Assembly: GCA_002729885.1 (NCBI GenBank)
Contig: PBUB01000004.1
Coordinates: 186,001-250,000 of the forward strand
DNA from: Spirochaetaceae bacterium
GTDB lineage: Bacteria; Spirochaetota; Leptospiria; Leptospirales; Leptonemataceae
Length of the DNA stretch: 64,000 nt
Direction of reading: 5' to 3'
The notes beneath the pieces are model-generated. The model was not told the DNA's origin. It ran no database searches and saw nothing but the letters and a program-made list of their open reading frames with translations. Positions 8,574 through 14,697 of this stretch are shown in pieces. The stretch's first letter is position 1. Every line of letters begins with the position of its first letter. A program made the translations under genes and the position numbers.

Positions 8574-10390
8574 GACGAACAGAGCCCTGGAAAAGAGAAG
8601 AATCCAAGATTCTTCTCCGGGATGCTCTATTTCTAATCTTGATCCTATGGATCTCAGTATTTCTCGCAGAAGCCTATTTTGTAAGAGAGGATACTTCCCC
8701 TGTAGATCGAATCTTTATCTATCTGGTTCTCTTCATTCCACTGGGCACTCTGAACTTCCTGATTCTGTACTACTACAGGAATAAGAGGATTCGTCGCACA
8801 GGAAACCTGCGATCATCCCTGCGTTATCGACTGATGATTGCCTTTATGGTGGTTTCCATCTTTCCATCCATTCCAATCTTTCTGGTAAGTTCGGACAGGG
8901 TAGAAACCGTCATTGGAGTTCTGTTTTCCCTGGATTTTCGCGGAGGTTTGCTGGCTTCCGAAGATCTGTTGAAGCAACATGAGCTGGAAGAGACCAGAAG
9001 GTTCTCTGAATACGTGGCAGCCCGTCAGGGGTATCTGCCTTCTGTGGGCAACTGGCCGGGCACACTGGAAAAGGGTTTTGATGCGGAATCAGAAAGCATC
9101 TTCCTGATTGAAGGCTCCAGCGTACTGAAACGATTTGGAGAGCAACCGCTAAATCCGCTGGAATGGAGTTCCGTTCGCCGGGGCAACGACAAAGGTGCTC
9201 CCATATTTGCAGGCGTTTCTTCCAGTCGCAGGTATGCAGTTGTTACGGTCCCTACCGCCTCACCGGATCGCTACTATCTTATTACACGTCACCTCTACGC
9301 GGGCAACTCCAGATCTGAAGCCAGATTCCAGGACATAGTTAACCTGGTGGCTTCGGAAAAGGAAGAATGGGAGGAAAAGATACCCTACAATCTTCGTCTG
9401 GGTCTGGCCATCGCCTACGCAATGATGATTACGATAGCTCTGGGAGTAGCCATTGTACTGGCGCGTCAGATTTCGCATCCCATTGTTTCTCTGGCTGCGG
9501 CAACTCGCTCTGTAACCCAGGGAAAGCTGGACACCCGACTGGATATCAAGGCCGAAGGAGAAATCGGAATACTCATCGATAGCTTCAATCAGATGACCGA
9601 AGAGCTGCAAACCCTGAGAGGGCGATTGTTGCATTCTCAGAGGGTGGCTGCCTGGCAGGAAGTGGCTCGCAGACTGGCCCATGAAATCAAGAATCCTCTG
9701 ACTCCTATCCAGCTATCGGCAGAGCGAATGCTAAGGCGTCTCGATCGACCGGATAAAGGCAATCTGGAAGAAATCGTTCGATCCGGCGGAAGCACCATTC
9801 TGGAACAGGTGAATGTACTCAAGCATCTGGTGGAAGAATTCTCTAACTTTGCCCGCATGCCGGCACCAAGGCTGGAATACCATTCGCTTATGGAACTTCT
9901 TCAAGAGTCCACCCAGGCCTATGCCAATCTTCCGGATATTGATTTTGATCTAAAAGTCTCTCCTGATCTGCCGGAGCTGGCTCTGGACAGAAACCTGGTC
10001 ATCGGAATGATCAATAACCTGGTGCAGAATGCCATCGATGCCATTCGTTCCATGGAATGGGAAAGCGATGATACTCCGGAAAGACCCCTGATTCGTGTGG
10101 CAGCAGCACCGCATCTTCAGGCAGGCAAGCGATATGTACAGCTCACTATAGAAGACTCCGGGCCAGGAATAGAGGAAAATCAGAGGGAGCAGATATTTGA
10201 GCCATATTATACAACTAAAGGCGAAAAAGGGAATGGTCTGGGATTGGCCCTTGTAGAAAGAGCTGTGCTGGATCACAATGCCCGAATCTATGTCACTGGT
10301 TCCAGTCTGGGCGGAGCCGCATTTCGCGTGTTTTTCCCTGTGCCCGAGGACAGCCAGGGCGAAAGAGATATAATGGTATTTCCTGTATGA
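8570..10390 (+). CDS. ntrY: NtrY-type membrane sensor histidine kinase
   Basis: Membrane kinase pairing with the NtrX-type regulator just downstream. The start is a TTG overlapping the ptsH stop (TTGA). Three hydrophobic segments (about 15-36, 44-66, 89-107), an extracytoplasmic region, a fourth segment (about 281-299), and HAMP define the membrane part. The dimerisation box LAHEIKNPLTP puts the phospho-His at 371. The ATPase domain shows NLVQNAID, EDSGPGIEEN and KGNGLGLALV. Length 606, shorter than typical NtrY (about 730), and no clear PAS domain is visible between HAMP and HisKA. The signal sensed is unknown. Confidence 0.88.
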   Translation: MRRTEPWKREESKILLRDALFLILILWISVFLAEAYFVREDTSPVDRIFIYLVLFIPLGTLNFLILYYYRNKRIRRTGNLRSSLRYRLMIAFMVVSIFPSIPIFLVSSDRVETVIGVLFSLDFRGGLLASEDLLKQHELEETRRFSEYVAARQGYLPSVGNWPGTLEKGFDAESESIFLIEGSSVLKRFGEQPLNPLEWSSVRRGNDKGAPIFAGVSSSRRYAVVTVPTASPDRYYLITRHLYAGNSRSEARFQDIVNLVASEKEEWEEKIPYNLRLGLAIAYAMMITIALGVAIVLARQISHPIVSLAAATRSVTQGKLDTRLDIKAEGEIGILIDSFNQMTEELQTLRGRLLHSQRVAAWQEVARRLAHEIKNPLTPIQLSAERMLRRLDRPDKGNLEEIVRSGGSTILEQVNVLKHLVEEFSNFARMPAPRLEYHSLMELLQESTQAYANLPDIDFDLKVSPDLPELALDRNLVIGMINNLVQNAIDAIRSMEWESDDTPERPLIRVAAAPHLQAGKRYVQLTIEDSGPGIEENQREQIFEPYYTTKGEKGNGLGLALVERAVLDHNARIYVTGSSLGGAAFRVFFPVPEDSQGERDIMVFPV

Positions 10391-11742
10391 CAATTTACAT
10401 AGTGGACGACGATCAAAGCATTCGCTCCTCATTGCGGGCCATTCTGGAAGACGAAGACTTCTCCGTTGAAGATTTTGCCACCGGACGTGCCATGCTCAAG
10501 AATCTGAAAACCCAGAGACCGGATATGATCCTTCTGGATGTCTGGATGGGCAAAGAAGACGGTCTGGAAATCCTGGATAAGATTCGCGCAGAGTATCCGG
10601 CTTTACCTGTATTGATGATCAGCGGGCATGGAACCATCGAACAGGCAGTAACCGCCACCAAGAAGGGTGCCATAGATTTTCTGGAAAAGCCTTTGAGTCT
10701 GGACATTGTATTGGAGAGAATCAATTCCATTCTTCAGATTCCAGCCACCAACGGGGCGAAAAAGACAGAAATCAAGCTGGGGTTCGATGAAATCATCGGT
10801 CAATCCGAACAGATTCAAAAAGTGAAGCAATCCATATCCCAGGCAGCCCGCACCAACGCCCGGGTCTTTATCTATGGCGAAAACGGTACTGGAAAGGAAC
10901 TTGTAGCCCGGGCTATATATCGCAATTCCAAACGAGCAGAAAACCCTTTCGTGGATGTAAACTGCGCTGCCATTCCCGGAGAACTTATCGAAAGCGAGCT
11001 GTTCGGGCATGAAAAGGGTGCCTTTACCGGCGCATCAGAGAGGCGAATTGGCAAATTCGAGCAGGCCAACGGTGGGACACTCTTTCTGGATGAGATCTGC
11101 GATATGTCGCTGGCCACCCAGGCTAGAGTGCTTCGCGTCCTTGAAGAACAACGATTCAGTCGCGTAGGATCCACAGAAACCATTGAAGTGGATGTTCGTA
11201 TTATCGCAGCCACAAACATCGATCCACTCCAGGCTATTAAAGAAGGAAAGTTTCGCGAGGATCTTTACTTTCGCTTGAATGTAATTCCCATTGTAATGCC
11301 AGCTCTTCGCGAAAGACCCGGAGACATTTCTCTACTTCTGGATCATTTCCTGCGACAATCCCTGAAGGAAAATCAGATCGATCCAAGAACATTTACCCAG
11401 GGGGCTCTGGAAGCTCTCACTCATTATCCCTGGCCTGGAAATGTGAGAGAACTAAAGAACGTTGTGGAGCGGATCGCCATACTTTCAGAGGGCCCGGAAA
11501 TCACAGAAACAGAAGTGCAACTGCATTTGCGACAGTTTCCTGTGGAAGGCGAGGGTAACGATGGTCCTCTGTCCTCGGATCTTAAAACGGCACGCAAGGA
11601 ATTCGAAAAGGATTATATTATGCGCGCTCTCAAGCAGAATGATAAAAATATTAGCCAGACAGCACGATTTTTGGGTCTGGAAAGAACCCACTTGCATAGA
11701 AAGATCAAATCCTTGAAAATCGACCTGGACCAGATTCAATGA
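10387..11742 (+). CDS. ntrX: NtrX-type sigma-54-dependent response regulator
   Basis: Receiver (1-120, phospho-Asp51 in ILLDVW) plus AAA+ domain plus C-terminal Fis-type helix-turn-helix. Walker A is GENGTGKE, and the sigma-54 contact loop GAFTGA is intact, so it should activate RpoN promoters. The HTH (ISQTARFLGLERTHLHRKIKSL-type) ends the protein at residue 451. ATG overlaps the ntrY stop by four bases, indicating coupled expression. Being in the same run as rpoN suggests the cell keeps sigma-54 and one activator together. Target genes cannot be told from this window. Confidence 0.93.
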   Translation: MTIYIVDDDQSIRSSLRAILEDEDFSVEDFATGRAMLKNLKTQRPDMILLDVWMGKEDGLEILDKIRAEYPALPVLMISGHGTIEQAVTATKKGAIDFLEKPLSLDIVLERINSILQIPATNGAKKTEIKLGFDEIIGQSEQIQKVKQSISQAARTNARVFIYGENGTGKELVARAIYRNSKRAENPFVDVNCAAIPGELIESELFGHEKGAFTGASERRIGKFEQANGGTLFLDEICDMSLATQARVLRVLEEQRFSRVGSTETIEVDVRIIAATNIDPLQAIKEGKFREDLYFRLNVIPIVMPALRERPGDISLLLDHFLRQSLKENQIDPRTFTQGALEALTHYPWPGNVRELKNVVERIAILSEGPEITETEVQLHLRQFPVEGEGNDGPLSSDLKTARKEFEKDYIMRALKQNDKNISQTARFLGLERTHLHRKIKSLKIDLDQIQ

Positions 11743-11752
11743 TAGGCGTTCA

Positions 11753-12700
11753 ATGATAGGTGAGGAAAAAAAAGACAGGAATCTTCCACAACCCCTGGAT
11801 GAGATGGAAGATATCCTCCAGGATCTGGGTCAGGTGCTGGAAAATGAGAATCTGATCTGGACCACGGAAGGTCAGACCAGACCGGAACATTTCGATTTCT
11901 CTGGAATGGCCGATCTTCTTCGTTCAGCTTTTCACAATGCATCCACAGACTATTCTGAGTCATCCACCGTCAGCTCTGCCGGAGGAAGGACAGATTCAGC
12001 TTCCGAAGATCGCCAGAAGAACCTATCAGCAGGCAGGAAGCCAGGGCCTCCGGCGAATCTGCAACTGGCAGCCAATCAAAAATGCACTTTATGCAGCGAT
12101 CGTATCTATGCCACGAGACGATTCTATATCCAGGGGCGAAAACCTGTACTGGTAGTTCATTTCGAAGGTCCCTTTGGAAAGCAAACGGAAGCCCGGGATC
12201 GCAGCCAGAAGCTCTATTTTGCCAGTGAGCAGGAGGACGATCTGTTTCGCCGGATGGTGGAACGCATGGGCCTTTCTATGGAAGATCTGCATTTCCAGCA
12301 ATTACCGGCCTGCCATTTCGTATCCGAAACCAGCACCGCGGATGACTGGAACGAAAGGACCCTGAACTGCCTTACCCATCTGGAAGATACAATCAAACGA
12401 GAATCAATAAAACTTGCTCTGATTACCGGTCCAGCAGCGGTACTGCTTTTTGGGGAAGAAGGGGCCAAGCAATTCTCAGAATCCGGCGAAGTGATTCAGA
12501 TGCCTGTTCTTTCCCAGCAGATTGGTGCTGTAGTAGTGCGAAGTCCGGCTGCACTGCTTTCCCTGGAAGGTAGAACCAGAAAGGCCCAGGCCAGCGGTGA
12601 CGATGCCTCCTACAAGACAGCCAGAGAGCAAGAAATCAAAGTGAAAAAGCAAATACTTTCCAGTCTGGAAAAGGCCTTTTCATTGCCAGAACTGACATAA
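11753..12700 (+). CDS. UDG-superfamily-like Fe-S protein with degraded active site
   Basis: 315 residues; no plain family match by eye, but the layout follows family 4 uracil-DNA glycosylases. An acidic, low-complexity N-terminus (1-105) precedes CTLC (111, 114), a beta strand VLVVHFEGP, a helix with MVERMGL, LPACHF (Cys187), LNCLTHLEDTI (Cys206), strand LALITGPAAVLLFG and finally RSPAALLS. The four cysteines are the only ones in the protein and have the order and rough spacing of the UDG 4Fe-4S site. In active enzymes the strand motif reads GE(G/A)PG and the last one HP(A/S); here both key residues are lost (His to Ser at the second). It is probably a non-catalytic DNA- or nucleotide-binding relative. 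It lies 10 bp after ntrX and 11 bp before priA. Confidence 0.55.
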   Translation: MIGEEKKDRNLPQPLDEMEDILQDLGQVLENENLIWTTEGQTRPEHFDFSGMADLLRSAFHNASTDYSESSTVSSAGGRTDSASEDRQKNLSAGRKPGPPANLQLAANQKCTLCSDRIYATRRFYIQGRKPVLVVHFEGPFGKQTEARDRSQKLYFASEQEDDLFRRMVERMGLSMEDLHFQQLPACHFVSETSTADDWNERTLNCLTHLEDTIKRESIKLALITGPAAVLLFGEEGAKQFSESGEVIQMPVLSQQIGAVVVRSPAALLSLEGRTRKAQASGDDASYKTAREQEIKVKKQILSSLEKAFSLPELT

Positions 12701-12711
12701 TCCTGCCATCT

Positions 12712-14697
12712 GTGTTCGATCGCTTCGCACGAGTTCTATTCCGATTACCCCTGGACCGTGCCCTGGACTACCGCATTGCTCCGGATATGGAGCCAGAGAT
12801 TGGAAGCCGGGTTCAGGTAAAACTGAACAATCGAGAAGAAATCGGTATCGTATGCGAAATGACAGATACCGCAGAATCAGATCGGGTGCTGGACATTGAA
12901 GCTGTACTGGACCCGTTGCCGGTGGTGACAAAAGATCAGATTGAACTGGCAGACAGACTTGCGGACTACTACATTTGCGGACCTGGAGAAGGGCTCTTCA
13001 AGATGTTTCCTTCCCCCCCGGTTTCCTTTCAGACCACCTCATCACGAAATTTCAAGATACCGGACATAGAGGCTGCTCCCGCACCCAGCCCCAGACATAC
13101 CCTCAACCAGGAACAGTCTGCCATCTATCAGGAAATTAAGAAAAACCATAAGGCCGGCCGGATGCATCTATTGCATGGAATCACCGGCTCGGGAAAAACA
13201 GAAGTCTATATTCATTTGATGCGCGATGCTCTTCTTGAAGGGAGGGGCGCCCTGCTGCTGGTTCCGGAGATTGCACTTACGGTTCAGATGATCCAGAGGC
13301 TTCAGGAAGTGTTTGGTTCTGCCATCGCACTTTTGCATTCAGGGCTGCCCGCAAAAGAGCGATTCTTGAATTATCTGTCTGTCATCCAGAAGAAGCGAAG
13401 ACTTGTGGTGGGCACAAGATCCGCAATATTTGCACCGGTGGATGCGCTGAAATACATCATCATCGATGAAGAACATGATAGCTCCTACCGGGAAAATAGC
13501 GCTCCCAGATACGATGCCCGGTTACTGGCTCGCTGGATCGCAAACTCCAGGGATGCCATGATTATCGCGGGATCCGCCACTCCCAGACTGGAAAGTCGGC
13601 GTGCCTGCCAGACTCATCCAGAACTATTTCATTACCATTCCATTTCCGGTCGAGCAGCCGGCAGCCTGCCGCAGGTGCAGGTTCTTCAGGCTCCCACAAA
13701 TCAAAATCCCATTTCCGGACAATTGATCACAGAGATAGAGAAGAATCTAAAAAATGGACAGCAAACCATTCTGCTTTTGAATCGGAGAGGATATCAGCCA
13801 TTCATTTACTGCGATAACTGCGCCAGTACCATCAAATGCCCCCGCTGTTCTGTTACTCTTCACTTTCACAAACCAGACATCCTTCTATGTCATTATTGCG
13901 CCTACAATGCGCGAAACGATGGAACCTGTCCGCAGTGTGGCGGAAAGACAAAAGCCACTGGCACAGGCGTTCAGCGATTGGAGGAGTTCCTGGCATCTCG
14001 TTTCCTGGATGCAAGAATTGAACGAGTGGATACAGATACATCCAAGGGAGGCAAGAATCTACAGGATTCATTGCACCGATTCTTTCGCAAGGAACTTGAT
14101 ATACTCATGGGGACTCAGATGATTGCCAAAGGCCTGGATGCTCCGGATGTTACCCTGGTAGGCGTCCTGCAGGCCGACCAGGGTCTTATGCTTTCCGACT
14201 ATCGCGCCCAGGAACGAACGTTTTCTCTTCTAATGCAGGTGGCGGGGCGAGCAGGCAGAGGGCAGTTCCAGGGCCGGGTTATCATTGAAGCCTTGAATCC
14301 GGAGCATTCTGTAATTCATATGGCTGCAGCCCAGGACTATGCAAGGTTCTATGACGCAGAATTAAGACTAAGGAGTGCCACAAATTATCCGCCGTTTTGC
14401 AGACTTCTTAGATTCTTGATTCGATCACCGGATCAGGAATATGCAGAACAGAAGATCGATGAACTGGCGGAACTTCTGGAAAGCACCCTGGCGTCCGAAA
14501 GCGATGCACTGGAAATCCTGGGTCCGGCTCCTGCTCCGATTGAAAGAATCCATGATCAGTACAGAATGCATATCCTGGTGAAAACTCGTAGCTATGAAAG
14601 AATTCGACCGGCACTGAGAGCCATGCTGGAATCATTTCGTCCTGGACTGCGAAAGGGGCATCTGGAGTTTGAACCGGATCCCCAGGATGTGGTTTAG
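12712..14697 (+). CDS. priA: Primosomal replication helicase PriA
   Basis: Restarts replication at stalled forks by loading the primosome. GTG start, 661 residues. After the N-terminal DNA-binding domain comes Walker A GITGSGKTEVY (about 158), DEEH box motif IIDEEHDSSY, then the zinc-binding insert with eight cysteines in four CxxC pairs (CDNC, CPRC, CHYC, CPQC), and helicase motifs V-VI (GTQMIAKGLD, QVAGRAGRG). All parts are intact. The preceding UDG-like gene may be co-transcribed with it. Confidence 0.96.
   Translation: MFDRFARVLFRLPLDRALDYRIAPDMEPEIGSRVQVKLNNREEIGIVCEMTDTAESDRVLDIEAVLDPLPVVTKDQIELADRLADYYICGPGEGLFKMFPSPPVSFQTTSSRNFKIPDIEAAPAPSPRHTLNQEQSAIYQEIKKNHKAGRMHLLHGITGSGKTEVYIHLMRDALLEGRGALLLVPEIALTVQMIQRLQEVFGSAIALLHSGLPAKERFLNYLSVIQKKRRLVVGTRSAIFAPVDALKYIIIDEEHDSSYRENSAPRYDARLLARWIANSRDAMIIAGSATPRLESRRACQTHPELFHYHSISGRAAGSLPQVQVLQAPTNQNPISGQLITEIEKNLKNGQQTILLLNRRGYQPFIYCDNCASTIKCPRCSVTLHFHKPDILLCHYCAYNARNDGTCPQCGGKTKATGTGVQRLEEFLASRFLDARIERVDTDTSKGGKNLQDSLHRFFRKELDILMGTQMIAKGLDAPDVTLVGVLQADQGLMLSDYRAQERTFSLLMQVAGRAGRGQFQGRVIIEALNPEHSVIHMAAAQDYARFYDAELRLRSATNYPPFCRLLRFLIRSPDQEYAEQKIDELAELLESTLASESDALEILGPAPAPIERIHDQYRMHILVKTRSYERIRPALRAMLESFRPGLRKGHLEFEPDPQDVV

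Follow-up and report, generated by a model that had tools for sequence, protein, structure and literature searches.

The window, that is the whole stretch of 64,000 nucleotides analysed here, carries a gene (11753..12700), in the following called Q, that encodes a protein of 315 amino acids with four cysteines, a predicted uracil-DNA glycosylase (UDG) fold and no catalytic motifs, as seen from its open reading frame, its orthologues, a structural model and a profile alignment. Q and all other features named for this locus lie on the + strand. It starts 10 bases downstream of ntrX (10387..11742), and priA (12712..14697), encoding the replication restart helicase, begins 11 bases beyond its end, confirming the position between these two genes that had been given in a preliminary description of this DNA. 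The operon containing Q also has ntrY, ntrX, hprK and ptsH, and the linkage of Q to its upstream neighbour ntrX is looser than that to priA directly downstream. An N-terminal helix (residues 13–31, 11789..11845) forms an extension that can be aligned with motif-altered UDGs encoded next to priA and that is mostly missing in a second UDG lineage of family 4 (UDG4), which is unlinked to priA. The UDG-like domain spans approximately residues 107–280 (12071..12592) as judged from the model, its PDB matches and the profile alignment. Its cysteines, the only ones in the protein, are C111-x2-C114 (12083..12094), C187 (12311..12313) and C206 (12368..12370), the last two being 19 residues apart, so that their number and their UDG4-like order had been described correctly. 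From the sequence and the alignment of orthologues they are the presumed ligands 1 and 2, 3 and 4, respectively, of a 4Fe-4S cluster, with ACHF standing in place of KCRP around C187. In the alignment the former motif A, HFEGPFG (12158..12178), has Phe137 at the position of the catalytic Glu. The former motif B reads RSPAALL (12539..12559) and, as the motif-B His of UDG4 aligns with Ser264, its RSP represents a His-to-Ser exchange with Pro265 retained. Both motif changes that had been noted before, HFEGP for GE(A/G)PG and RSPAALL for HP(A/S)xxL, are real, but HFEGPFG itself is variable and HYTGE, FFNGS and VHND are also found in this region of the orthologues.

An AlphaFold2 model of Q, calculated with 30 orthologues, showed a mean pLDDT of 82.5 and values above 90 across most of residues 110–300. 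The top 36 PDB matches of this model were all UdgX or family-4 UDGs and thus Fe-S UDGs (probability 1.00, E between 2e-7 and 3e-5); TDG ranked next, and the PDB UDG matches gave TM values of 0.56–0.68 on the target. Among viral structures it matched UDGs as well as the UDG domains found in phage polymerases. The UDG fold claimed in the preliminary description, for which structure prediction had been set as a test beforehand, was therefore borne out with UdgX and family 4 as best matches, and the profile comparison led to the same result, as hhalign aligned the Q family with UDG4 at E 2.8e-7 and paired each of the four cysteines of Q with its counterpart in true UDG4s. The corresponding values were 2.6e-8 and 6e-7 against the motif-altered priA-linked forms, 7.5e-6 against intact priA-linked UDG4 and 0.15 against the unlinked UDG4 lineage. 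A profile of the motif-altered priA-linked UDGs scored Q with 12.5 bits, whereas 300 shuffles of Q reached 5.8 bits at most, and as all of the top 36 PDB matches are Fe-S UDGs as well, the likeness between Q and UDGs exceeds chance. Q itself, with 17.9 bits, misses the gathering cut-off of the Pfam UDG family (PF03167, 24.3 bits), which is matched at E up to 1 by 13 of the 30 orthologues (best 1.8e-6). Phmmer searches of the PDB sequences with Q and with profile A1 gave no related match, the relation being visible only through fold or profile–profile comparison, and NCBIfam and PHROGs searches gave no useful one.

The four cysteines are invariant across all 30 aligned orthologues, and they are kept in 37 of 37 rows from the order of the window (some of these rows belonging to one genome) and in 14 of 14 rows from the other families of its class. 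Within one alignment, both catalytic residues, Glu in motif A and His in motif B, were present in 80/80 UDG4s; among the 20 sequences from the class of the window neither was found (0/20 each) and all 20 had the cysteines, so that conservation of the cysteines without the catalytic residues indeed extends to the orthologues. Comparison within the genus gave dN/dS values of about 0.09 over the full protein and about 0.03 in the core, at a dS near saturation, and this strong purifying selection argues against Q being a decaying pseudogene. With all ligands present Q would bind a 4Fe-4S cluster, and its sequence suggests that it has no glycosylase activity.

The Q family was found in 42 of the 48 genomes of the class, including all 30 of good quality, and among 393 genomes searched across the phylum just three weak matches lay beyond the class. 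In a narrower scan of contigs, six MAG contigs from Leptospiraceae/Leptospirales were found to carry close homologues of the Q members of family f2. In the order of the window Q is located directly upstream of priA and on the same strand in 23 of 23 loci, its end lying some 40 bases or less from where the priA match starts, and in three loci (L065, L066 and L134) insertions part ntrX from Q while Q stays with priA. The proximity to priA described for the window is thus kept throughout the order, which it predates by far. We had also considered ntrX as the meaningful partner of Q, which was set aside since its linkage is broken in several loci and that of priA is stricter. In families f3–f5 of the class, Q has a DksA-like neighbour gene at all 14 loci and priA is found elsewhere, so Q does not have to be physically linked to priA. 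This DksA-like gene precedes Q in L069–L072 and L121–L130, and where its product was read (L069–L072) most of the zinc-finger cysteines are lost.

As the three weak matches beyond the class all occupy an equivalent position, with hprK/ptsH or ntrX on one side and priA on the other, we extracted the open reading frame upstream of priA across the phylum as a wider test. At this position Spirochaetota usually have a UDG-like gene, which encodes an intact UDG4 in 43 sampled genomes from 15 families, a motif-altered UDG in 32 from 13 families and a protein of the window's type in 14. Family f14 has a DksA/TraR protein instead of a UDG at this position, and in f38, which its truA-x-priA gene order suggests to be Borrelia-like, and in f40 the UDG-like gene upstream of priA has lost the cluster cysteines. 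The gene order dksA-udg-priA was observed in 13 loci and dksA-priA in approximately 25, and since these two arrangements, dksA-Q of f3–f5 and Q-priA all follow from a single one, we propose dksA-udg-priA as the ancestral operon. In the phylogenetic tree the Q family is supported with an SH-aLRT value of 99 and groups with the motif-altered priA-linked forms (99, then 87). Motif A is already lost in the first altered group (f7, f20, f33), and the second (f12, f23, f31, f35, f39 and others) possesses an Asn at the position of the catalytic Glu in 19 of 20 sequences and keeps the motif-B His in 20 of 20. These altered forms (for example L201, L119 and L235) share with Q the operon position, the cysteines and the loss of motif A and represent its sister group, but they keep the motif-B His-Pro and the lysine-rich segment following it (HPITLIKNPELKK), which in the class of the window are both lost while the cysteines are kept. 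Profile, tree and operon position together support common descent of Q with UDG4, and we regard this ancestry, together with the loss of the catalytic residues, as very probable. As a UDG4 descendant that fails both catalytic motifs, Q is not counted here among the family-4 UDGs.

Compared to family 4 UDG (UDGa, PF03167), Q shows the same predicted fold, the same number and order of Cys ligands and a common ancestry, but it has lost motif A GE(A/G)PG as well as motif B HP(A/S)xxL, differs in the conserved Asn of motif 2, in KCRP and in the uracil-stacking loop, and carries the N-terminal extension. UdgX from Mycobacterium smegmatis, the best Foldseek match of Q and likewise of the Fe-S UDG fold, sets the precedent that a UDG4 derivative can cease to turn over. 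It keeps GEQPG and HPS and crosslinks via His109 of its KRRIH loop (PMC10359453), but all three elements are absent from Q, and neither GLAPA nor HPSPLN, the motifs A and B that define family 5 UDG (UDGb) (PMC10359453), occurs in the Q sequence. UDG4 and UdgX are already known (PMC10359453); for the Q family or a linkage of udg and priA we found no description in the open literature, which is weak evidence of absence.

The genome of the window carries a second UDG4 (L031) that is located beside a phoH-like gene and is unlinked to priA. Members of this lineage show 57–73% identity to L031 across families, always possess GEGPG and HP(S/A) and form one clade in the tree (SH-aLRT 98) apart from the priA-linked forms. 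The profile scores agree with the tree in placing the Q family closer to the priA-linked forms than to this lineage. The lineage is present in 27 of the 46 non-canonical genomes, which have the altered gene, versus 0 of the 43 canonical ones with the intact gene (Fisher 9e-11) or, counted by family, in 12 of 17 versus 0 of 15 (3e-5), with these statistics being inflated by shared ancestry and the association being phylogenetically confounded, so that it may reflect one or few events; some of the unlinked copies were assigned by score and not read. Additional UDG matches of at least 100 bits in two canonical genomes (G096, G108) were rejected as members of the second lineage as they are of the GLAPG type. 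Because the second lineage is confined, among these genomes, to those with an altered gene, the UDG of the priA operon apparently lost catalysis and was retained nevertheless. We rejected a strict dependence of the loss of catalysis on a backup UDG, since in at least four genomes with an altered priA-linked gene (G104, G123, G131 and G158) Pfam detects no further UDG.

The explanation we favour, although only by somewhat better than even chances, is that Q is a non-catalytic UDG4 descendant which binds DNA without excising bases and assists PriA-dependent replication restart; in this way a former repair enzyme would probably have become a non-cutting helper. For a role in PriA-dependent restart as such we see the balance as even. 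The ancestral spirochaete operon dksA-udg-priA would have encoded a family-4 uracil-DNA glycosylase as ancestor of Q. In the genome of the window the second UDG4 lineage would now supply uracil excision, and this second enzyme may have relaxed the selection on catalysis in the copy of the priA operon, which would then have lost its catalytic residues and been kept through a second role, either already held or newly gained. The UDG fold of Q, stabilised by a 4Fe-4S cluster that is probably structural, would bind DNA at stalled forks and leave the base uncut, with the helical extension at the N-terminus as a possible docking element for a partner; Q would thereby bind DNA and might interact with PriA. 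The idea of a PriA helper, already raised in the preliminary description, receives indirect support from the operon history and stays conditional. We know of no PriA partner in the spirochaete phylum. In E. coli, PriB, PriC and DnaT are the accessory proteins of the primosome, and as a PriA accessory Q might be a functional analogue of these proteins, to which its fold is unrelated. The DksA neighbourhood fits a PriA-restart role of Q, as oriC-independent replication in E. coli needs both DksA and PriA (PMC6488371). A bolder version, possible but rather doubtful, would make Q a UDG-derived, cluster-stabilised component of the spirochaete primosome that fills the place PriB/DnaT have in E. coli, base excision having given way to recruiting or loading at forks bound by PriA, and with a link through DksA to transcription–replication conflicts.

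The inheritance of long-lived operons does not require functional coupling, and Q might be a passenger whose role is unrelated to PriA (for example with DksA in transcription) and whose linkage to priA results from descent. We consider this unlikely: the position of Q beside dksA and not priA in f3–f5 and the presence of dksA in the triple operon agree with it, but in the order of the window the linkage to priA outlasts the insertions that separate ntrX and holds in every locus. As DksA and PriA share a process in E. coli (PMC6488371), this explanation overlaps with that of a PriA accessory. It appears quite improbable to us that Q is still an enzyme with its chemistry shifted to other residues, acting for example on another damaged base. 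UdgX is a precedent for such a shift within the UDG fold, its nucleophile having moved to a new loop (PMC10359453), H/Y136-137, RSP and C-x-F-N are conserved inside the order of the window, and the sister group with Asn in place of the catalytic Glu and a retained His would be in line with it. However, no residue apart from the start Met, the four cysteines and F189 is the same in all 30 orthologues, the near-invariant residues (N108, F165, W199, I219, G226 and P44) are mostly fold or cluster-side positions, the substitutes at the catalytic positions differ between the order of the window (Tyr/Phe and Ser) and its sister families (His and Gly), and the KRRIH loop of UdgX is missing. That Q is an iron or redox sensor, the cluster state of which regulates NtrX, HPr kinase or the helicase, is very unlikely, for even though the ligands are kept under strong selection with the active site gone, the clusters of repair glycosylases show redox activity (PMC9266487) and ntrY, ntrX, hprK and ptsH belong to the operon, the linkage to ntrX is broken in several loci where that to priA holds, and the loss of the cysteines in f38 and f40 means that the retained role needs no cluster there.

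If Q is indeed a non-excising accessory of PriA, the phylum would offer a natural series of a repair glycosylase that keeps its place in the operon as the catalytic residues disappear, and in which intact forms, altered forms and forms without any of the motifs still coexist. Q is a candidate PriA partner that ties dksA, a UDG relative and priA together. The analysis also marks the uncharacterised gene upstream of priA in the Borrelia-like lineage as a cysteine-less UDG relative. In f38 this gene encodes a protein of about 192 amino acids between truA and priA (L290:1288-1863, L324:1278-1853, L325:1278-1859 and L326:1308-1883), which matches BB0013 in position. The protein has a predicted UDG fold without CxxC and catalytic motifs and keeps a C-terminal NPxLKKxxWxDLK. 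Its model still matches family-4 UDGs best, a match that is partly biased because canonical UDG rows were contained in its alignment. The priA-linked UDG-like protein that has also lost the cluster cysteines in a genome of family f40 is found at L288:1222-1791.

Members of the second altered group (L118, L119, L161, L235 and others) have Asn at the catalytic Glu and keep the motif-B His, and they are possibly still active with an altered chemistry. The priA-linked UDG of L270 (genome G117) has intact GEAPG and HPSAII motifs and a broken CxxC, and may be an active UDG4 with an altered cluster site. The genome of the window also encodes a third protein of the UDG superfamily (L032:1306-2187, 293 amino acids) with GQAPG and HPSGLN, which follows a cyclic-nucleotide-binding protein. 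In genome G049 Pfam UDG matches lie within open frames of 771–1162 amino acids (contigs C123, C16, C72 and C342), which are possible fusions.
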